Part shown: positions 9,920 to 24,453 of the stretch, one piece after another
How positions within the stretch are numbered: position 1 is the first letter of the stretch
Layout of the letters: every line of letters begins with the position of its first letter
Assembly (NCBI RefSeq): GCF_009937995.1
Contig: NZ_AP021881.1
Coordinates: forward strand, 2,914,001-2,978,000
Origin: Sulfuriferula nivalis
GTDB taxonomy: Bacteria > Pseudomonadota > Gammaproteobacteria > Burkholderiales > Sulfuriferulaceae
DNA: 64,000 nucleotides
Direction: 5' to 3'
Program-made: the position numbers and the translations under genes
Notes under the pieces: generated by a model
What the model was told of the DNA's origin: nothing
Seen by the model: the letters and a program-made list of their open reading frames with translations, nothing else
Database searches by the model: none

Positions 9920-10363
9920 TCAATACGTTTTGTAGGGTAAGAATTTACCATTCAACACTATCTTTACCCGGTCACCTTTAGGATCGGCTACACGAGAAAT
10001 GTCCATGCTGAAATCAATTGCGCTCATGATGCCGTCGCCAAATTCCTCATGGATCAGCGCCTTGATAGAAGTACCATACACATTGATCAGCTCGTAAAAA
10101 CGGTATATCAATGGATCAGTTGGTACAGCCGATGGCAAGGAACCTTTGTAAGGCACGACTTGCAACGCTGCAATCGCTTCGGCTGGCAAATCCAGCATTT
10201 TGCCTATAATCGTCGCCTGCTCCACATCCAGCGTCATTTGCCCAAGCAAGGCGGCCGTTGTCCACTCTTTACTTAAACCAATTGCTTTGCCGAGGTCATC
10301 CCATTTCAGCCCTTTGGCAATTTTGGCAACCAGTATCAAATCAGTTACATCGGTACGTTTCAT
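9920..10363 (-). CDS. cynS: Cyanase (cyanate hydratase)
   Basis: This 147-residue enzyme converts cyanate plus bicarbonate to ammonia and CO2. An N-terminal helix-turn-helix-like domain (about residues 10-80) is followed by the catalytic C-terminal domain. The catalytic Arg88, Glu91 and Ser114 fall in YRFYELINVYG and GIMSAIDFSM with the same spacing as Arg96/Glu99/Ser122 of the E. coli enzyme. It is the last gene of the minus-strand ABC-transporter operon, 24 bp after the ATPase gene. Its role would be detoxification of cyanate or nitrogen acquisition from it. Confidence 0.96.
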   Translation of the reverse strand: MKRTDVTDLILVAKIAKGLKWDDLGKAIGLSKEWTTAALLGQMTLDVEQATIIGKMLDLPAEAIAALQVVPYKGSLPSAVPTDPLIYRFYELINVYGTSIKALIHEEFGDGIMSAIDFSMDISRVADPKGDRVKIVLNGKFLPYKTY

Positions 10364-10387
10364 GGTAGTTCCTTTCAGTTGATAGCA

Positions 10388-11302
10388 TTAATTAACAAGA
10401 TGAATAGCAGCCTGCTTGAGCGGACGCGGTGTTGCATCAGCATCCTCATCCATTTCACCGGGTCTGACTTCAGGTGGATTCCGCGGGTCATAATCTGCGT
10501 CTGATGTAAGCGCTAGCTCACGCGAACGACTCACCAGGAAATCTACCAGATGGTTACGTATGCGGTAATACTGAGCATCCTTGTGAATATCATTGCGAGT
10601 ACGGTTGCGTGGCAACGTGTTGACAACTATTTCGGCAATACGCGCACGAGGTCCATTGGTCATAAGAATAATTTTGTCAGAGAGCAAGATCGCTTCGTCT
10701 ACGTCATGCGTAATCATGAATACAGTTTGCTGAGTAGCGGCGCATATTTTCAGCAACTCATCCTGGATTACGCCACGAGTCAAAGCATCCAGCGCGCCGA
10801 ATGGCTCATCCAGCAGCAGCATTTTAGGCTGGATGGAAAATGCACGCGCAATACCGACACGCTGTTTCATACCACCCGACAACTCGGATGGCTTCTTGTG
10901 CTCGGAACCTGTTAACCCCACCAGATCAATAAATTGCTGGCTATGCTGCTGAATTTTTTCCCTGGACCAGTCTGGCCAGCGCGACTTGACGGCGAATTCA
11001 ATATTCTTCATCACCGTCAGCCACGGCATTAACGCATGTCCCTGAAACACCACGCCACGATCCAGACTAGGGCCCGACACTTCGCGCCCATCCATAATCA
11101 CGGTGCCGGCACTGGGACTATCGAGTCCAGCCAACACATTAAGAATAGTCGATTTGCCACAACCAGAGTGCCCGACTATGCAGACGAATTCACCCTTAGC
11201 GATGCTGAAATGGATGTTTTCAAATACCGGTACTGGTGTTTTTCCTCGACTAACCGGATAAACCTTACTTAACGCTTCAACTTTCAAAAAATCGGTTTGC
11301 AT
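10388..11302 (-). CDS. cynD: Nitrate/cyanate-type ABC transporter ATPase
   Basis: This 304-residue ATPase has Walker [11 protein letters not shown]-loop, signature [15 protein letters not shown], Walker [13 protein letters not shown] and a switch His in [11 protein letters not shown]. It belongs to the NrtD/SsuB/TauB group. The C-terminal tail of about 45 residues beyond the core is acidic and Pro-rich ([16 protein letters not shown]) and may be regulatory. It lies 10 bp after the permease gene and 24 bp before cynS, which favours cyanate as the substrate over nitrate or sulfonates. The substrate has not been shown. Confidence 0.88.
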
Positions 11303-11312
11303 ATCTGGCCTC

Positions 11313-12155
11313 TTAATCGTTATATGCCACTAATCGCGACAACCAGCCGAACACCATGTCCAGCATCATGCCGACGATGCCTATCATGAGTACGGCGAAA
11401 ATGACGTTGGTGAGACTGAGGTTATTCCATTCATTCCACACAAAATAACCGATACCAGTACCACCCACCAGCATTTCAGCCGCCACGATGACTAGCCAGG
11501 CTATGCCCATGGAAATACGCATGCCAGTCAGTATGGTCGGTGCTGCTGCTGGCAATATCACCAGAAAAGCTTTGCGCAACGGGCTGACTTCCAGCGTTTT
11601 GGCAACGTTCAGCCAGTCACGTTTGACTGCGGCAACACCGTAGGCAGTATTGATCAGCATAGGCCACAACGAGCAGATGAAGATCACGAAGATCGCCGAT
11701 GCCGACGAGTCCTTGATGGTATAGAGTGCCAGCGGCATCCACGCCAGCGGTGAGATCGGTTTGAGTATCTGGATGTAGGGATCCAGCGCCCGATGCATGA
11801 TAGGCGACATCCCAACCACAAACCCCAACGGTATCGCCACCAGTGCAGCAAGCGCAAATCCGGCCAGCACGCGCGTCAGCGAGTAACCAAGCTGAATGCC
11901 GATACCCTTGTCGTTAGGACCATGGTCGTAGAACGGATCAGCAAGCTTTTCCCGGAACGTATGTCCCACCTCAAGCGGCGTCGGCATGCCTGACTTTTTA
12001 ACGGCACCACCACCCATTAATGCAGCGTATTCGGCATCAGCTTGCGACACTGCTACCGTTTTCTGCGGCAGTGTCGCCAGATACCAGCCCATCAACATCA
12101 CGCCAAAAATCAGCGCAGATAACAGATAAGCACGAAAAGTCAGGGATTTGCTCAT
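11313..12155 (-). CDS. cynB: Nitrate/cyanate-type ABC transporter permease
   Basis: This 280-residue inner-membrane protein has an N-terminal helix, a periplasmic segment with [11 protein letters not shown], and the BPD_transp_1 core of five helices ending [12 protein letters not shown]. The EAA-type loop is seen around [31 protein letters not shown]. It begins 2 bp after the stop of the substrate-binding protein gene, so the operon is tight. It belongs to the NrtB/CynB group by its partners. Confidence 0.88.
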
Positions 12156-12157
12156 GA

Positions 12158-13507
12158 TCAGGCCCTGCTTATCTTAAAGGATTTGAGATATTGCTCAGGC
12201 TTAGCCGGATCAAACTCTTTGCCCATGATGGTGTATTTACTGTAGTTGCTGGCTGGCGCCGACAACCCCATTTCCTTCATACGTTTGCGTGCATCTGTGG
12301 CGAGGAATACCTGCTCTGCAATTTGCTTGTAATTGACATCGCCTTTCAGATAACCCCAACGCTTCATCTGCGTCAGCATCCATACTGCCATCGACTGCCA
12401 TGGGAACGGGTCGAAATCAACGCGATCCGGCACATTGCGCACTTTGCCCAGACCATCGGCAAAGTGACCCGTCATGACCTGTTCCAACACCGGAATAGGC
12501 TGGTTGAGGTAGTTAGCTGGCGCAATGGCCTTGATGATGTCGTCGCGGTTTTCCGGCTTGTGCGCATATTCGGTCGCACTGGCAATGGCACGGAACAGTG
12601 CGGCAAAGGTGTTTGGATAAGCTTTGGTAAACTCATGCGACACACCGAACGCGCAGCATGGGTGACCATCCCAGATATCGCGTGACAGCGTGTGAATAAA
12701 GCCGACTTCTTCATATACGGCACGCTGGTTGAACGGCTCAGGTCCAAGGAAACCATCAATATTGCCCGCGCGCAGATTAGCAACCATATCAGGCGGCGCC
12801 ATGATGCGCAGTTCTACATCCTTGTCTGGGTCTATGCCGTTTTCAGCAAGGAAATAACGCAACAGGAAGTTATGGATGGAGTAATCGAACGGGATACCGA
12901 ATTTCAGACCCTTCCATTGTTTCGGATCCAGATTGTTTTTGTGCTTGACGTGCATGGTAATGGCTTGACCATTGATATTCTCGATGGCAGCCACGTCGAT
13001 AGGCTGTGCCTGTGAACCGAGGCCAAGGCTGATTGCCAGCGGCATAGGCGAGAGCATATGCGAAGCGTCATATTCCTTGTTCATAACCTTATCGCGAACC
13101 ACAGCCCAACCGGCCGTTTTCAGCAGCGATACGTTAAGTCCTTCACGCGAATAGAATCCCATGGGACCGGCCATGATAATAGGGGTGGCGCAAGTAATAG
13201 GTACGAAGCCGATTTTCAAGTCAGGCTTTTCCAGCGGGGCGCGGTCAGCGGCCAGTGCTTTTGCTGCCGCCATTGGGAACAGCGTGGAAATAGCAGCGAA
13301 CGCCGTGCTGGCACCGACAGCACGGATGAAATTGCGGCGAGTTTCGTCATGTGGAAATAACGCGCGCATCACGGTGGTTTCGACCACGCGACCAATGCGG
13401 GCATCTTCGTCAAGCTGATGCTCGGTCTGGTTACTATGGCGGCCGCAACTACAGCCCTGGCTGGCAAGTTTGACCTTGGGGTCAAATGGATCGTCAAAAG
13501 CTGACAT
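12158..13507 (-). CDS. cynA: Tat-exported NrtA/CynA-like substrate-binding protein
   Basis: The start is placed at the ATG preceded by GGAGATATACG, giving 449 residues; the open frame runs 23 codons further upstream without a ribosome site. About 55 hydrophilic residues, including a CSCGRH motif, precede a twin-arginine signal (TRRNFIRAVG) at about residue 56. The NMT1/NrtA-like ligand-binding domain (LKIGFVPITCATPIIMA) follows. Such a long pre-Tat extension is unusual. The protein should bind substrate in the periplasm for the permease and ATPase that follow. Transcription is probably from the sigma-54 site at 13560-13576. Confidence 0.88.
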   Translation of the reverse strand: MSAFDDPFDPKVKLASQGCSCGRHSNQTEHQLDEDARIGRVVETTVMRALFPHDETRRNFIRAVGASTAFAAISTLFPMAAAKALAADRAPLEKPDLKIGFVPITCATPIIMAGPMGFYSREGLNVSLLKTAGWAVVRDKVMNKEYDASHMLSPMPLAISLGLGSQAQPIDVAAIENINGQAITMHVKHKNNLDPKQWKGLKFGIPFDYSIHNFLLRYFLAENGIDPDKDVELRIMAPPDMVANLRAGNIDGFLGPEPFNQRAVYEEVGFIHTLSRDIWDGHPCCAFGVSHEFTKAYPNTFAALFRAIASATEYAHKPENRDDIIKAIAPANYLNQPIPVLEQVMTGHFADGLGKVRNVPDRVDFDPFPWQSMAVWMLTQMKRWGYLKGDVNYKQIAEQVFLATDARKRMKEMGLSAPASNYSKYTIMGKEFDPAKPEQYLKSFKISRA

Positions 13508-13559
13508 CGTATATCTCCTTAACATTTGATTAACAAAATTTATCTGCTGGGTATCAATT

Positions 13560-13576
13560 AGCAGCAATCGTGCCAA
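13560..13576 (-). promoter_or_regulatory. Sigma-54 (-24/-12) promoter of the cyn operon
   Basis: Read on the minus strand the site is TTGGCACGATTGCTGCT. It matches the consensus YTGGCACGRNNNTTGCW at all but one position (CTGC for TTGC), with GG and GC exactly 10 bp apart. It lies about 40 bp upstream of the transcription-ready start codon at 13507 and is divergent from the activator gene. Confidence 0.75.
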
Positions 13577-13656
13577 CCTGACAAATTACTGATTTCATAA
13601 GGCTTGCAGGCTTATCATATGTTTTCTGATATTTTCCTCGCCCGATTTTTGCTTAC

Positions 13657-13674
13657 ATTGTGTAAACAATTTGT
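13657..13674. promoter_or_regulatory. Putative enhancer (UAS) for the NifA-like activator, copy 1
   Basis: The plus strand holds the inverted repeat ATTGTGTAAACAAT (13657-13670). On the minus strand the site reads ACAAATTGTT (13674 to 13665) followed by TACACAAT. The same ACAAATTGTT occurs at 15305-15314 in the same orientation and distance (91-92 bp) to the other sigma-54 promoter. It is also 20 bp upstream of the activator start, so autoregulation is possible. Confidence 0.6.
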
Positions 13675-13694
13675 TCATGACAGGAGAGGTCAAA

Positions 13695-15278
13695 ATGGAT
13701 ACTGCAAATATTCGAACTGCGCCAGAGACACTGATAGATGAAGAGCTATTAGTAATACGTGAAGCGTCTGCGCTAATGGGCAAGAGCCCAGATCAGCACT
13801 ATGTCATCCGTGAAATACTGCATTTACTGTCCGAGTTACTGGGTTTAAATCGTGGGCGTGTCGTGCTGCCAGACGCCGAGACCGATATATTACGCATCGC
13901 ACACGCTTATGGACTGTCGCAAACAGAGATTAAACGCGGTCAATTCTCACCAGGCGAAGGCATTACCGGACGGGTGATGCAGACCGGACAAATGGTAATA
14001 ATTCAGGATATCGACAGCGAGCCTGAATTCCTGTTTCGCACCGTAGTACGCGATCAGTTACCGCATGAAACAGTATCTTATATTGCCATGCCTATTGAGC
14101 AGGGTGGCAAAGTACTCGGCGTACTCGGCGTGCACCGCTTGCGCGACCGTCCACGACCGCTGGCGCGTGACTTGCAGATGTTAAAAATCGCCGCCACCCT
14201 GATCGCCCAGGTCATTATGCTTAACCGTTATATACAGGAGCGTACCGCCCGACTGGAAACCGAAAATCGCGAGTTGAAATGGGCGCTAAACAAGAATCCA
14301 TCCACGCTGGGATCCTTCGGTATCGTCGGCGAATCCATGCCGTTACGGCGTGCGCTAAAGCAAATCGAACAGGTTGCGCAAACCGATGCGACGGTGCTGT
14401 TATTAGGTGAATCCGGCACTGGCAAAGAGCTGTTTGCGCGCGCCTTGCACCTTTCCAGTGCGCGCCGGGATTTTCCGTTCATCAAGGTCAATTGTGGTGC
14501 AATACCGGAAAACCTGTTTGAATCCGAGTTATTTGGTTATGAAAAAGGCGCCTTTACCGGCGCGACCAGCAGTCGGCCCGGCTATTTCGAGCAGGCTAAC
14601 AATGGCACCATATTTCTCGATGAAATCGGCGATATGCCGCTGGCGATGCAGGTCAAATTATTGCGGGTGCTGCAGGAAAACACCATACAGCGCGTCGGGG
14701 CGCGTCGGGAAGCTGCGATTAATGTGCGCATAGTGACTGCTACCAATCAGGATCTGCAACAGGCAGTCAGTCGCGGCAAATTTCGACTCGATTTATTTTA
14801 TCGCATCAATGTAATCCCGGTGCGACTGCCGACCTTACAGGAACGCCCCGAAGATATACGTCATCTGGTGCGCTATTACCTGAATCAGATTAATCAAAGT
14901 TATCAGCGCAACGTTAATATTGCACCCGATGCGCTCGAGCAACTTGCAGCTTATAGCTGGCCAGGCAATGTGCGGCAATTGCGCAACGTGCTGGAACGAC
15001 TGGCCTTACTATCTGAAAACCGATTAATCAGTGCAGCCGACGCTGCATCAGTGATTGCCAGCGAAACCATGAATGAAGCATCCACGCACCCAGTTGCTGA
15101 CATTGAGACGACGCTACCAGGAGGCTTACGCACTTATCAATCGGTACAAACCAGTGATCGTGCGAGCATTATTCAGGCGCTGGCCATAAGTAATGGCAAT
15201 AAGTCGCGCGCAGCACAACAGCTGGGCATGACCTTACGTCAGCTAAATTATCGTATTCAGCGCCTGGGGATAGACTAA
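13695..15278 (+). CDS. NifA-like sigma-54-dependent transcriptional activator
   Basis: The ATG at 13695 is preceded by CAGGAGAGG and gives 527 residues. The order is an N-terminal GAF sensor domain (about residues 20-170), an AAA+ domain with Walker A GESGTGKE, the sigma-54 contact loop GAFTGA and Walker B FLDEIGDM, and a C-terminal Fis-type helix-turn-helix ([20 protein letters not shown]). It opens the sigma-54 polymerase complex by ATP hydrolysis. No nif genes are near. The two flanking -24/-12 promoters with matching upstream elements indicate that its targets are the cyn operon and the OsmC-rubredoxin operon. The GAF ligand is unknown. Confidence 0.93.
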
Positions 15279-15304
15279 ATCCCGGCTCGACCACGACTTG
15301 TTAT

Positions 15305-15320
15305 ACAAATTGTTAACAAT
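15305..15320. promoter_or_regulatory. Putative enhancer (UAS) for the NifA-like activator, copy 2
   Basis: ACAAATTGTT followed by AACAAT contains the perfect 12-bp palindrome ATTGTTAACAAT (15309-15320). A second, imperfect half (TTGTTATACAA, 15298-15308) adjoins it. It lies 92 bp upstream of the -24 GG of the OsmC-operon promoter, matching copy 1 at the cyn promoter. Confidence 0.6.
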
Positions 15321-15404
15321 CTGTTCGCTTACAAAACCAAGGAAGGACTGAGCTTTTATTTATTTATTGTTAATAATCATGCAATTATAGTTATTTTTCG
15401 ATGC

Positions 15405-15420
15405 TGGCATGGCGTTTGCA
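15405..15420 (+). promoter_or_regulatory. Sigma-54 (-24/-12) promoter of the OsmC-rubredoxin operon
   Basis: TGGCATGGCGTTTGCA fits TGGCAYG-N4-TTGCA exactly, with GG (15406-15407) and GC (15418-15419) separated by 10 bp. The start codon of the first gene is 61 bp downstream of the -12 element. Confidence 0.8.
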
Positions 15421-15480
15421 ATAGTGTCAATGTGTCCAATGGGCCACTTACATTAATTGTCATCGCATAAGGAGCAAATC

Positions 15481-16023
15481 ATGCCAGAAGCAGCCGTACT
15501 AAAAATGAATACCGTGTTAACCCCCATCGACAAAGCAGGTCTGGAAGCGCTTGCGGTCAAAGGCAAAGCTAACCCACAGAACGTCGTCACCTTAAAATCC
15601 AAAACGGTGTGTGAAGGTAAATTCCGCAATTTAAGCTATGTACGCAACTTGCCAGCACACGTCATTGATGAACCACCTCACTTGTTGGGCGACGATACCG
15701 CACCTAACCCATCTGAAGCCGTGCTGGCAACCCTCGGTTCCTGTCTCTCGGTTGGCTTGCATGCCAACGCAGTTGCACGCGGCATTTCACTGACCAAGCT
15801 CGAATTAGAACTTGAAGGTGATATCAACGTGACTGCAGTCTGGGGGGTCGGTGATTTATCTGATAGCAAAATCCTTGGCTTTACGGATATCCGCGTCAAA
15901 GTGTATTTGGAAGGCGATGCCAGCCAAAGTGAACTGGAAGAATTAGTCGCACACGCCAATCGCTGGTCACCTGTAGCCAACACTATGCGCAACCCCGTAG
16001 GTGTGACGGTAGCATTAGCCTGA
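15481..16023 (+). CDS. OsmC-family protein lacking the second catalytic Cys
   Basis: The ATG at 15481 follows AAGGAG, giving 180 residues. The OsmC fold is evident in PNPSEAVLATLGSCLSVGLHANA, with Cys88 at the usual first redox position. The usual second Cys, in the family motif CPV, is Ser163 here (RWSPVANTM), so a classical two-Cys peroxide reductase mechanism is unlikely. It is the first gene downstream of a strong sigma-54 promoter and is followed by the acyl-CoA-dehydrogenase-fold gene. It may be a thiol- or ligand-handling partner of that enzyme; this is inference. Confidence 0.85.
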   Translation: MPEAAVLKMNTVLTPIDKAGLEALAVKGKANPQNVVTLKSKTVCEGKFRNLSYVRNLPAHVIDEPPHLLGDDTAPNPSEAVLATLGSCLSVGLHANAVARGISLTKLELELEGDINVTAVWGVGDLSDSKILGFTDIRVKVYLEGDASQSELEELVAHANRWSPVANTMRNPVGVTVALA

Positions 16024-16080
16024 CCCTGTCAGCTGAAAATGGCTGACCTTGCGGCAGCCATGTAAAAACAAGGAGTTATC

Positions 16081-17232
16081 ATGCAAGTTGAAATGTTAAA
16101 ACCAGTAATGGATACAGAAACGGGTGAATCGTTACCAGGCATGGCTGAGCTAATCCGTACCGAATTGTGTCCACGGGTGGTAAGCATCGATCTCAAGGGT
16201 GAGTACCCCCGTGAATTCATGCACAAACTGGGCGCGATTGGCGGTTTCGGTGCTATGGTTGCGCCACAGTTTGGTGGCACTGGTTACGGTCTCAAGAATG
16301 CGATACGGATAATCGAAGATGTGTCGCGCGAATGCGTATCTACCGGATTCATGGTGTGGGCACAGTACGCTTGCGCCTGGTATTTGCAGAACAGCAGCAA
16401 CCTCGCCATCCGCCGCGACGTGCTGCCGCTAATTGCCAAAGGCATAGTGCTAGGCGGTACCGGACAATCCAACGCAATGAAATCCTGCGCGGCTATCGAA
16501 GATAACCGCCTGACGGCAAAACGTGTTGACGGTGGTTATCTGGTTAATGGCACGCTACCCTGGGTTTCCAATATTGGCATCGATCACTACTTCCATGTCG
16601 GCATTGATGTCGAAAACGAACCTGGACTATTGATAGCACTGGTCAAGGGTGATCATCCGGGGCTTACGCTCAACCAGAATGCCCACTTCATCGCGATGGA
16701 AGGCACCAACACCTTCGCCTGCAATTTCAAGGGCGTATTTATTTCCAATGAATCCGTCGTTTCACACCCCAGTGAATTTACCCAATTCAAATCACGCACC
16801 AAAGCTGCATTCATCCTGATGCAAATGGGCATGGGGCTAGGACTGATCGATGCGTGTGTGAGTATGATGAAACGCTCCAACAAAACCCACGGCCACGTCA
16901 ACTGTTTCCTCGACGACCAGGCTGAAACTATCGAAAGTGAATTGTTAGCCGCGCGCGAAGCATGCTATCGTCTAGCCGATAAAATTGACGCTATGCCCGA
17001 TGCCAATCACGAACGCGAAACGCTGGCACTGCGTCTGGCGGGCGGCGAGATGTCGCTGAAAGCAGCTAACTCCGCCATGTTGCATCTCGGCGCCAAAGGC
17101 TATCTGGTCGGAAATGCTGCCCAGCGCCGCGTACGTGAGGCTTATTTTATTGCGATAGTGACGCCCGCTATCAAACACCTGCGCAAAGAATTGCACGATA
17201 TCGACACTGGCAGCTGCGCCTGCACTGCCTGA
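16081..17232 (+). CDS. Acyl-CoA-dehydrogenase-fold flavoprotein
   Basis: This 383-residue protein has the N-terminal helical, middle beta and C-terminal helical domains of the acyl-CoA dehydrogenase superfamily (FGAMVAPQFGGTGYG; GGTGQSN; YLVNGTLPWVSN; MGMGLGLIDACV; REAYFIAIVTPAIKHL). The C-terminal EGT-type flavin/substrate segment of true dehydrogenases is not apparent, so it could be an SfnB/DszC-like flavin oxygenase or an unusual dehydrogenase. The C-terminus ends in a CAC motif. The neighbouring rubredoxin could pass electrons to or from it. RBS AAGGAG precedes the ATG. The substrate is unknown. Confidence 0.82.
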   Translation: MQVEMLKPVMDTETGESLPGMAELIRTELCPRVVSIDLKGEYPREFMHKLGAIGGFGAMVAPQFGGTGYGLKNAIRIIEDVSRECVSTGFMVWAQYACAWYLQNSSNLAIRRDVLPLIAKGIVLGGTGQSNAMKSCAAIEDNRLTAKRVDGGYLVNGTLPWVSNIGIDHYFHVGIDVENEPGLLIALVKGDHPGLTLNQNAHFIAMEGTNTFACNFKGVFISNESVVSHPSEFTQFKSRTKAAFILMQMGMGLGLIDACVSMMKRSNKTHGHVNCFLDDQAETIESELLAAREACYRLADKIDAMPDANHERETLALRLAGGEMSLKAANSAMLHLGAKGYLVGNAAQRRVREAYFIAIVTPAIKHLRKELHDIDTGSCACTA

Positions 17233-17253
17233 ATGCTGAAAGGAAGGAAAGCG

Positions 17254-17646
17254 ATGCTCACTTTTACTGTCAATCTGGATGTAGACACAGCCGTGGCCAA
17301 GCTCAGCGAAGCTGTGGCGGCCGTGCCGATGGGACTGGTCGCGCATATTAACGGTCAGGCCAATGCCGCCAAGCGCGGCCTGACCGTACCCGCCGACCAG
17401 ATACTGGAAGTGTTCCGCCCCGATTTTGCGATTCGCGTGTGGCAAGCGGACAAACGCGCCGGGATCGATATCCCGCTGCGCATTCACGTTTACGAAGCCG
17501 CAGGCAAGACGCATGTCGCCATGCGTAGCCCGATGGAAGTATTTTTACCTTACGCTAGTGCCGAGCTCGATAAGCTGGCTACCGAACTGACGCCAATTTT
17601 TGACAACATACTCGCGTCCCTAACACCTTATAAGGAAGCATCATGA
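17254..17646 (+). CDS. DUF302-family protein
   Basis: The ATG at 17254 with AGGAAGGAAA upstream is preferred over the one at 17233, giving 130 residues. The core VFRPDFAIRVWQADKRAGID, LPLRIHVYE-type strand and later FLPYASAELDKLATELTPIFDNIL resemble DUF302 domains, a small alpha/beta fold of unknown function often found in sulfur-metabolising bacteria. There is no signal peptide, so it is cytoplasmic. It overlaps the rubredoxin gene by 4 bp (ATGA), implying translational coupling. Assignment to DUF302 is by eye. Confidence 0.7.
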   Translation: MLTFTVNLDVDTAVAKLSEAVAAVPMGLVAHINGQANAAKRGLTVPADQILEVFRPDFAIRVWQADKRAGIDIPLRIHVYEAAGKTHVAMRSPMEVFLPYASAELDKLATELTPIFDNILASLTPYKEAS

Positions 17647-17831
17647 ATACCTGTACCGAAGTGGTAACGCAACAATGGATATGCCTGATTTGCGATTTTA
17701 TTTTCGACGAGACTCTGGGCATGCCTGACGAAGGCGTCCCGCCAGGCACGCGTTTTGAAGATATTCCTGAAAGCTGGGTATGCCCGGATTGCGGCGTAAC
17801 CAAAAGCGACTTTGAATTAGTCCAGGCGTAA
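17643..17831 (+). CDS. Rubredoxin
   Basis: This 62-residue one-iron electron carrier has Cys14-X2-Cys17 and Cys47-X2-Cys50 (WICLICDF and WVCPDCG) as iron ligands. The Gly normally following the first pair is Asp18. It is the last gene of the sigma-54-driven operon, with a start overlapping the DUF302 stop. It probably donates electrons to the acyl-CoA-dehydrogenase-fold enzyme encoded upstream (inference). Confidence 0.95.
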   Translation: MNTCTEVVTQQWICLICDFIFDETLGMPDEGVPPGTRFEDIPESWVCPDCGVTKSDFELVQA

Positions 17832-22427: not shown

Positions 22428-23543
22428 TTAGCGCATGGTCTCCCACCCTGTGTCATCTGCTCTGTGTTCCCGTTTTATAGATGGGGCTGATGTGGCTAGC
22501 GGTATCGCTTTGATACGTGTGCGCACTATCTTCATCACCCCACCGCAACATTGGCAACGTATCGCTGGTCTGGGTTGCGCTGGCGGCGGATTGTTCCGTC
22601 GCCATAGGTGGGTCAGCTGTAGCTGGGTGAGTAGTTTGCTATTGGGATGCAGGTAGCCAAAGTTGCGGGCGCGGCGGTAGCCTTTGGGCAGAATGTGTTG
22701 CAGTATCAGTCGCAGGAAGGCTACACCACTCAAGGTACGGGTTTCCATTTGTTTGGTTTGGCTGTTCCGGTAACGGAAGGTGACCTGACCATGCCGGTCG
22801 GAGAGGATGTCTTTCTCCTGTATCACCCCCCGATACAGATAGCGCCCAAGGTAGATCAGAGCGTGCTGTCCAGTGCCGACGGCTTTGCAATCCACCACCC
22901 AATCGGTCGGGTAATCGTTTGGCAGGGTGAGTCCTGCTTGTCTGATGCCTGCCAGTAATTTGGCACGAAATACTTTGGCCAGGGCTTTGTGGTTAAACAG
23001 GTAGTTGCCGTGTTTATGACGCATGCGTCGCTGTTTGGGGTTAAAGGCGACAGCGGGCATGACGAGATGCACATGGGGGTGATAGTCCAGTCGGCGGTTA
23101 TGGGTATGCAGTACAGTCACCGCCCCTGCGCTGCCGCGCAGCTTGTTGTCGTTTTGGCTGAAGGTGTTGACTGTTTCCCACGCGCAGCGTGTGATCAAGT
23201 CATACATGACGCGCTGATGTTGCCAGGCCAGTGTGCGCAACTGGGCGGGCACGGTGAAGGTGAGCATGAAGTAGTTGGCGGGGATGGATTTGTGTAATTG
23301 CTGGTCTATCCAGCGCTGTGATTCGTGCGCCTGGCAATGCGGGCAATGCCGATGACCGCAGGAATGTGGCAGGTAGCTGGGTGTTTGACAATCATCACAG
23401 GCAAGTTGCATCCTCGGGCTCATCTGGCTACGGCAGGTTTGAAAGGCGGTTAAGGCAGCTTGCTGGCTGGGCAATAGGTGATGACCGTGTTGTGCAAGCA
23501 GTTTAGCTGCGTAGGTTGCTACGATGTGCGCCAGTCTGATCAT
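22428..23543 (-). CDS. IS91-family HUH transposase
   Basis: The ATG at 23543 overlaps the recombinase stop (ATGA), giving 371 residues. An N-terminal zinc-finger-like segment ([23 protein letters not shown]) precedes the HUH motif [10 protein letters not shown] and the catalytic tyrosine region [10 protein letters not shown]. These are hallmarks of IS91 rolling-circle transposases (Y2_Tnp). A further CxxC pair follows near the C-terminus. It nicks single-stranded DNA at the origin end during rolling-circle transposition. Confidence 0.93.
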
Positions 23544-24453
23544 TTGACTTTGCCCCAATGAATGTGGAATTTCTCCATTAATTGATTAAGGCGAGTGTGT
23601 GCGCTCTGATGGCGTTGTTCGGTGAGGTGGGTGTAGCGGATGGTGGTGAGGATGGACTGGTGTCCGAGTATCTGCTGAATTTCGAGTAAATCGATGCCAG
23701 CTTCTATCAGGTGGGTGGCATAGCTGTGGCGCAGGCTGTGTGGTGTAATTCTTTTTTTAAGCCACAGTCACGGGTCACTTGACCCAAGGTGGTCTGGATA
23801 CCACCACGATCCAGCGGGGTGCGTGCCAAGTGCGATTTGGCAAGACCGCCGTGTCGATTAGGAAAGAGCAAGCTTGGGTTGCGATGGGTGAGCCAGAAAC
23901 GGCGCAATACCTGCAAGGTGTTCTCTGATAACGGCACCAATCGATCACGGTTGCCTTTGGCGTTGCGTACTTGCACCCGCATCCGATCCGCATCGATATC
24001 CCCTACCTGCAAGCGTAAGCCTTCGCCTAATCGTAAGCCCAGGCTGTAGAGGGTGAAGAAGAATACGCGGTAGCTCAATACGCGGGTGGCCATGAAGATT
24101 TGTTGTGCCTGGGCGACGGTAATGATGTCGGGCAGGCTATATGACTTGGGTGGTTTAACCAGATCCGCACCTGGCCAGGGTTGGCTGAGTACATGGGCAT
24201 AATAGAACTTCAGTCCATACAGATCATGTTTGAGCGTACTCCATGAATGGGTATCCAGGATGCGAACAAAATAGTCGGTTAATTGTGGCTTGGTGAGCGC
24301 GTCTATCTGGTCATTAAAATACACCGCTGCGCGCCGTACGCCGTGTGAATACAAGGCGATGGTTTTAGGCTGCATGCCTCTGAGCTTGAGGCAATTCAGC
24401 AGTCGCTGGTGATTGTGCTCGAAGTGCGCGGGGATGGGTGTGGGGGCTGTCAA
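23540..24453 (-). CDS. IS91-associated tyrosine recombinase, frame-disrupted
   Basis: Frame 0 starts at a TTG with GGAG upstream and encodes the SAM-like N-domain and the first catalytic part (Arg in [11 protein letters not shown], Lys in [12 protein letters not shown]). It then ends early at 23707. The missing part, [23 protein letters not shown] and the tyrosine region IRYTHL, is intact in the -1 frame down to 23540. The switch lies at a run of seven A on the minus strand (23752-23758). Either a -1 ribosomal slip on A AAA AAA G makes the whole enzyme, or one A was lost. The HxxR and Tyr residues depend on it. Confidence 0.75.

Follow-up and report, generated by a model that had tools for sequence, protein, structure and literature searches.

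Gene content of the locus

The DNA studied here is a 64,000-nt stretch of Sulfuriferula nivalis (NZ_AP021881.1), the whole of which is hereafter called the window. Its locus at 9920–17831 comprises a minus-strand operon for cyanase (cynS) and for the ATPase, permease and binding protein of an importer (9920–13507), and, on the plus strand, a gene for a sigma-54 activator (13695–15278) followed by genes for an OsmC-family protein, an acyl-CoA-dehydrogenase-fold flavoprotein (hereafter ACAD), a DUF302 protein and a rubredoxin (15481–17831). The gene set of an original prediction made from the sequence alone was borne out by family searches. We read the locus, with a probability of about 0.52, as one sigma-54 regulon that would draw nitrogen (and sulfur) from a small anion containing both elements, likeliest thiocyanate, by an oxidative route through cyanate. 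The features are as follows.

9920–10363, minus strand: cynS, cyanase (cyanate to ammonia and CO2); TIGR00673 181.4 bits and NF002773 225.3 bits, both above cut-off
10388–11302, minus strand: ATPase of an ATP-binding cassette (ABC) transporter, NtrCD/CynD type; TIGR01184 308.7 bits (cut-off 291.8)
11313–12155, minus strand: ABC transporter permease, NtrB/CynB type; TIGR01183 227.8 bits (cut-off 209.05)
12158–13507, minus strand: substrate-binding protein, CynA/NrtA/CmpA type (NMT1_2); PF13379 1.2e-82
13575–13560, minus strand: −24/−12 sigma-54 promoter of the cyn operon, TGGCACGATTGCTGCT; one mismatch from TGGCACGNNNNTTGCW
13656–13674, minus strand: putative cyn-side upstream activator element, ACAAATTGTTTACACAATG; exact pattern match, kept in 8/8 same-genus loci
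13695–15278, plus strand: NifA-like sigma-54 activator with GAF sensor domain, OsmC-linked clade; family models and tree
15305–15324, plus strand: putative OsmC-side upstream activator element, ACAAATTGTTAACAATCTGT; exact pattern match, kept in 8/8 same-genus loci
15405–15420, plus strand: −24/−12 sigma-54 promoter of the OsmC operon, TGGCATGGCGTTTGCA; one mismatch from TGGCACGNNNNTTGCW
15481–16023, plus strand: OsmC-family protein; PF02566
16081–17232, plus strand: ACAD, proposed oxygenase; PF02771/PF00441, structural model, Foldseek and alignments
17254–17646, plus strand: DUF302 protein; PF03625 1.5e-13
17643–17831, plus strand: rubredoxin, proposed electron donor; PF00301 2.3e-20

The cyanase lies well inside its equivalog family (cut-off 113.3 bits for TIGR00673), and cynA, cynB, cynD and cynS are contiguous on a single strand, as in a cynABDS cluster. 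The closest solved chains to the binding protein are nitrate and bicarbonate transporter components. All eight OsmC-carrying genomes of the genus (8/18) show the divergent layout, and the flavoprotein is full-length in 7 of the 17 other same-genus genomes (70–96% identity). A congener of 64% completeness (G010) has its ACAD gene in two pieces without the middle (residues 122–297), which may reflect a genuine loss or a flaw in the assembly. Elsewhere in the window (22428–24453, minus strand), two open reading frames resemble, by eye, an IS91-type transposase and a tyrosine integrase.

Promoters and upstream elements

The two −24/−12 sites of the original prediction, and the element upstream of each, were confirmed with coordinates right to 1–2 bases. 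The consensus used in the promoter scan was TGGCACGNNNNTTGCW, and since the same scan also gave a one-mismatch match within the activator gene (14161), the case for the promoters rests on conservation and not on the match itself. Both promoters are present with at most two mismatches in all eight same-genus loci, window included, and the shared elements are likewise kept at the orthologous places (8/8), while much other intergenic DNA differs among these loci.

The core element ACAAATTGTT occurs at 13665–13674 (minus strand) and 15305–15314 (plus strand), each copy about 90 bp upstream of the −24 box and overlapping an ATTGT..ACAAT repeat. Aligned over the eight loci, the element reads [ACG]CAAATTGT[TC]AACAAT on the OsmC side and ACAA[AT]TTGT[TCA]TACA[CT]A[AG]TGTAAGC on the cyn side. 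The composite pattern ACAAWTTGTNNACAMWM has only two exact matches in the 3.44-Mb genome, namely both elements of the locus, and four matches with at most one mismatch, against three for a control read backwards; as the pattern was derived from these two sites, the matches speak for specificity and are not an independent discovery. The cyn-side element also lies only 21–39 bp ahead of the activator start codon (ATG), so that autoregulation is possible and the activator may control its own gene as well.

The activator belongs to an OsmC-linked clade

The activator (527 amino acids) has GAF, AAA+ and HTH_8 domains. It scores 471.4 bits with the nifA model TIGR01817, below the cut-off of 528.85, and was not accepted as NifA. 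For comparison, cyn loci were retrieved from 20 genomes without OsmC; a sigma-54 regulator (> 200 bits) was found in seven of them, six of which were placed in a cyn-adjacent clade. In a regulator tree of 33 sequences, from which the short L069, L075 and L141 had been left out beforehand and in which the published CynF was not among the sequences, 22 OsmC-linked and 11 cyn-adjacent regulators were split at 100/100 support, the latter consisting of the six from OsmC-less cyn loci and five from loci that also have OsmC. The window activator falls in the OsmC-linked group, outside the clade of regulators directly beside cyn genes. Among the regulators examined for domains, two cyn-adjacent ones have PAS and three OsmC-linked ones have GAF, and those beside cyn genes elsewhere are about 620–660 amino acids long. 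An assignment as CynF was rejected for this separate clade and different domain make-up relative to the cyn-adjacent regulators, CynF itself being outside the tree. The grouping implies that in Sulfuriferula, and in locus L066 of another family, which has the same layout, an activator of the OsmC type adjoins the cyn operon, where others use the other type. Locus L092 (2584–10371) contains both, a PAS-type activator by cynA and a GAF-type one by OsmC, plus a relative of sulfur dioxygenases.

OsmC and ACAD form a conserved pair

Relatives of the OsmC protein were found at E up to 1e-25 in 16 of 369 genomes of the class (14 genera) and in 14 of 398 genomes of the phylum (9 genera); 41 plasmid records also gave a match, of which seven were examined. 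With 28 genome regions retrieved, genes were mapped in 54 loci, 48 of them encoding both OsmC and ACAD. The non-redundant set used below comprises 37 OsmC+ACAD loci, window included, and leaves out L072 and L100, whose ACAD matches were short or weak; the sole actinobacterial locus is L100 (OsmC 41%, ACAD 27% identity). The two proteins form a conserved pair across alpha-, beta- and gammaproteobacteria, and the co-occurrence of both operons that the original prediction had set as a check was found in other genomes. A Marinobacter plasmid, for example, carries importer, activator, OsmC, ACAD, a rubredoxin–reductase fusion and cynS together, and an Acetobacter plasmid OsmC, ACAD, the fusion, importer and cynS.

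A rubredoxin, or a relative of the fusion of rubredoxin with a NorW-like reductase, is encoded in 20/37 loci and a ferredoxin-reductase-type protein in 3/37, the reductase relatives being assigned by BLAST label and the rubredoxin domain checked only in L097 and L099; a ferredoxin was recognized by eye in L083. DUF302 is present in 12/37 loci. Of the 21 sigma-54 activators counted in the locus survey, those of L087 and L088 belong to the cyn-adjacent clade. A −24/−12 site with at most two mismatches precedes OsmC in 20/24 loci with a sigma-54 activator, in 15/19 with a TetR gene and in 0/9 with neither, counts whose rows are partly redundant, with close relatives among them and one locus entered twice (L022 = L086); shuffled versions of the same upstream DNA gave a match in at most 5/200.

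An importer binding protein is encoded in 29/37 loci. Assigning a substrate from this protein was tried and abandoned: its closest relatives are of nitrate and bicarbonate type, and its tree is not decisive, as the grouping mostly tracks taxonomy and several branches are long. The same regulon could serve another substrate with sulfur and nitrogen (isothiocyanate, a thiourea-like compound or organic thio-nitrogen) that is cleaved to cyanate and sulfane sulfur. Linkage to cyanase would fit any compound yielding cyanate and sulfur, and 13/37 loci have a second importer type, whose binding protein in L094 scores 97.9 bits with the aliphatic-sulfonate model TIGR01728, below the cut-off of 163.5. 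Set against this are the nitrate/cyanate-type importers of 17/37 loci, a type for small inorganic anions, and a search for additional genes shared by three or more loci, in which the 45 clusters listed all resembled, by eye, antisense shadow frames, although a family restricted to one or two loci would escape it. We consider such a substrate unlikely, and regard thiocyanate as the main substrate with about even odds.

Several single loci deserve mention in their own right. L085 (10–4677) encodes two binding proteins of the NrtA/CynA type, one in a cynABDS set and one ending the OsmC operon; cyanate and the primary substrate may each have an importer of their own. In L033 (9722–11148), from G060, a genome of 1.8 Mb within the same order, an ACAD of 44% identity adjoins a rubredoxin; the genome has no OsmC match, and the retrieved 19.5 kb hold no importer or cyanase. 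L096 is an OsmC–ACAD–rhodanese set, flanked on either side by transposase genes, on a plasmid of Pseudosulfitobacter that was typed as conjugative; 18 plasmid records of Pseudosulfitobacter matched.

Linkage to cyanase

In the class sample cynS was present in 13/16 OsmC-positive and 37/353 OsmC-negative genomes (Fisher p 4.8e-10; 2.9e-9 without the window genome), and in the phylum sample in 13/14 and 56/384 respectively (Fisher p 5.7e-10; 1.6e-8 without the window genome and G167), the two samples overlapping in part and the p-values being inflated by genome kinship. Within the genus, all eight OsmC-positive genomes have cynS against 3/10 of those without OsmC. The two genes are also close: against a rough random expectation of 1 percent, cynS lies at most 12 kb from OsmC in 20 of the 24 genomes having both (the same-contig pair being used for G553, which has two of each); in the other four they are on different contigs.

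The two operons could nevertheless be independent nitrogen-scavenging units, one for cyanate and one with a peroxide or organosulfur role unrelated to it, that have no more in common than a nitrogen-responsive activator. Such a reading would agree with the separate sigma-54 activator seen in 7/20 OsmC-less cyn loci (six in the other clade) and with the 22/37 OsmC+ACAD loci showing no cynS in the retrieved stretch. It sits badly with a proximity of 20/24 where about 1 percent is expected and with the excess of cynS in OsmC-positive genomes of both samples, and we hold it to be quite improbable. That the OsmC operon is coupled to cyanate is, in our view, well supported and likely.

Rhodanese and sulfane sulfur

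In the other seven loci of the genus an extra gene between the promoter and cynA encodes a two-domain rhodanese of about 285 amino acids (PF00581 in the L015 copy). Rhodanese is encoded in 18/37 non-redundant loci, alphaproteobacteria included, and its loop CFKGAR is kept in 29/29 aligned rows. L092 and L093 have no rhodanese in the stretch; there a member of the sulfur dioxygenase family adjoins the relative of the reductase fusion. These two proteins score 383.1 and 389.2 bits over the dioxygenase part of Blh, a two-domain model with a cut-off of 625 bits that neither reaches, and among solved structures the L092 protein is closest to 9g8t and 4ysk. Sulfur dioxygenases of this kind consume persulfide, and their presence in place of rhodanese suggests that sulfane sulfur is a product of the pathway rather than a reagent. 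The guess in the original prediction that thiocyanate or a similar compound yields the cyanate thus gains ground, both from the rhodanese of seven genus loci and of alphaproteobacteria and from the dioxygenase relatives of two other loci, the substrate itself being inferred.

Rhodanese and cyanase are also classic cyanide-linked enzymes. The locus might accordingly serve cyanide defence, with the flavoprotein as a cyanide monooxygenase forming cyanate, rhodanese making thiocyanate in parallel and cyanase clearing the cyanate, and the electron-supplying module would suit a monooxygenase. Hydrogen cyanide diffuses and requires no importer, though, and importer binding proteins are encoded in 29/37 loci; the exchange of rhodanese for a sulfur dioxygenase relative in L092 and L093 likewise suggests sulfane sulfur as a product. 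Cyanide defence is to our minds very unlikely.

Features of OsmC and the flavoprotein

Over 53 aligned, partly redundant OsmC rows, Cys88 is the only invariant cysteine (53/53), and Ser163 at the SPV motif is equally constant (53/53). This serine stands at what we take to be the position of the resolving cysteine of two-cysteine OsmC/Ohr relatives; the second cysteine of an OsmC/Ohr peroxiredoxin would thus be replaced.

The predicted structure of the ACAD (mean predicted local distance difference test score, pLDDT, 93.2) has the acyl-CoA dehydrogenase fold. The 50 Foldseek matches listed are all of acyl-CoA-dehydrogenase type by title or known project, with template modelling (TM) scores to the query of 0.75–0.85, and the closest folds among them are acyl-CoA dehydrogenases of 16–21% identity. 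The profile alignment with solved relatives reaches about REAYF; with the remaining register continued by hand, the position of the catalytic Glu falls on Thr361 of a conserved VTP motif. In acyl-CoA dehydrogenases this C-terminal Glu belongs to an EGT motif. An ordinary acyl-CoA dehydrogenase was rejected on this ground: lacking the catalytic Glu, the protein should not, by its sequence, function as a dehydrogenase. The fold named in the original prediction therefore stands, and the name dehydrogenase is inapt. Matches to the SfnB, DszC and HsaA models were weak and all far below the cut-offs (33.4 bits against 430.9 for the SfnB-type model TIGR04022). The electron-delivering neighbours (rubredoxin reductase, ferredoxin reductase and the L083 ferredoxin) point to an enzyme that consumes electrons and probably uses O2.

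A proposed route from thiocyanate to ammonia

A shared control protein, matching control sites and recurrence together indicate that the two operons are probably one undescribed desulfurizing route that passes cyanate to cyanase. The GAF-domain activator would bind both ACAAATTGTT elements and drive both promoters, and the ABC importer would take up the anion, thiocyanate and/or cyanate. Electrons would pass from NADH through rubredoxin to the ACAD, which with O2 would oxidize the S–C bond of thiocyanate to give cyanate and sulfane sulfur. Cys88 of OsmC may accept the sulfur as a persulfide, to be passed on by rhodanese (in the sister species) or other sulfur enzymes, with oxidation by a dioxygenase as an alternative, and cyanase would convert the cyanate to ammonia and CO2.

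A number of observations weigh against this proposal. The window strain itself has no rhodanese gene at 13507–13695, its upstream sequence being like that of the congeners through the promoter and then leading directly into cynA, and no close copy was found elsewhere in the genome (one match only, E 4.6e-4, 31% identity); with this gene missing, the window carries a reduced form of the regulon. OsmC occurs without ACAD in four of the 54 mapped loci (L078, L080, L091, L098) and ACAD without OsmC in two (L033, L035, the latter being the split gene of G010). Four OsmC-positive genomes (G077, G153, G383, G594) have no cynS, and just 15/37 OsmC+ACAD loci have it within the retrieved stretch. The upstream elements of Sulfuriferula are not recognizable in the more distant L032, which retains the genes, and no −24/−12 site with at most two mismatches precedes OsmC in activator loci L077, L079, L092 and L099 or in TetR loci L083, L089, L094 and L095. 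The binding protein, given its likeness to nitrate and bicarbonate types and the non-decisive tree, does not show thiocyanate, DUF302 is without an explained role, and we know of no report of Sulfuriferula using thiocyanate. The data brought together here are genomic throughout. Cyanase alone is an unreliable marker of a thiocyanate pathway (PMC5328954, PMC6504805).

Comparison with known systems

In Pseudomonas pseudoalcaligenes CECT5344, CynF is a sigma-54 activator divergent from cynABDS and essential for its expression and for cyanate use, with a predicted sigma-54 promoter before cynA (PMC6627978). The locus here shares this arrangement, having a divergent sigma-54 activator beside cynABD–cynS and a −24/−12 promoter before cynA. 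Unlike in CECT5344, the activator also faces a second operon with matching control sites, and unlike the cyn-adjacent regulators it is shorter, has a GAF domain and belongs to another clade. Of the gene set for which the original prediction knew of no described pathway, we found no description of the OsmC half; divergent sigma-54 control of cynABDS is known (PMC6627978).

Two thiocyanate pathways are described (PMC5328954, PMC6504805), one by a hydrolase giving carbonyl sulfide and one by a copper dehydrogenase giving cyanate and sulfur. The proposed products, cyanate and zero-valent sulfur, are those of the dehydrogenase pathway, whose operons are also reported there with a sigma-54 activator; that pathway uses an exported copper enzyme, in place of which we find a flavoprotein, a rubredoxin and OsmC (PMC5328954, PMC6504805). 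An Afipia strain was predicted to use a dehydrogenase-type enzyme with cyanate hydratase (PMC8061750). The hydrolase pathway also gives ammonia from thiocyanate, by a chemistry different from that proposed here, and a cyanase gene can lie near the hydrolase genes (PMC5328954). The thiocyanate hydrolase gamma model TIGR03887 had no match in the window genome, and the control genomes gave none either.

A separate observation concerns L098 (3890–8546), on a plasmid of Rhizobium sp. AB2/73, which carries a three-gene nitrile-hydratase-like set: the alpha subunit scores 249.9 bits, just above the TIGR01323 cut-off, the beta subunit is split in two genes, and the thiocyanate hydrolase gamma model gives 222.1 bits (cut-off 291.45). 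The same locus encodes DUF302, CbtA/CbtB, an aquaporin and an OsmC 50% identical to that of the window, and no ACAD.

ACAD-fold monooxygenases and SfnB-type flavoproteins share the acyl-CoA dehydrogenase fold and an organosulfur context with the flavoprotein here, which differs in scoring far below every cut-off and in being linked to rubredoxin. In AlkB-type oxygenase systems electrons run from NADH through a reductase and rubredoxin to the oxygenase, and the terminal enzyme is di-iron and membrane-bound. The same order is proposed here, but with a flavoprotein in place of the di-iron membrane enzyme, and one OsmC–ACAD locus may have a rubredoxin module where another has a ferredoxin module.

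One comammox genome paper reportedly mentions OsmC, acyl-CoA dehydrogenase and cyanate (PMC5596200). Among the open-access papers listed, we found no title that combines OsmC, ACAD, rubredoxin and cyanase, and no paper that links OsmC and thiocyanate to rhodanese or acyl-CoA dehydrogenase. A Rhodococcus proteome on dithiodibutyrate places an OsmC-like protein beside sulfane-sulfur genes (PMC5157978).

Implications

We tentatively suggest, at a little under even odds, that these loci represent a third way of thiocyanate breakdown, by a rubredoxin- or ferredoxin-fed ACAD-fold desulfurase using O2 and flavin together with a one-cysteine OsmC sulfur acceptor, found through alpha-, beta- and gammaproteobacteria. 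If so, it would be carried on chromosomes and plasmids, often behind sigma-54 promoters, and perhaps into actinobacteria. It would add a candidate enzymatic route, open to testing, to those of thiocyanate hydrolase and the copper dehydrogenase, and could explain the use of thiocyanate as a nitrogen source by heterotrophs, several of which were reported to grow in this way (PMC5328954). Such a route would matter for waste water from mining and coking and for cyanate as a source of nitrogen. A likely role would also emerge for the one-cysteine OsmC subfamily and for a family of ACAD-fold proteins whose present annotation is acyl-CoA dehydrogenase. In Sulfuriferula itself, the cyanate operon would stand under a different kind of activator.

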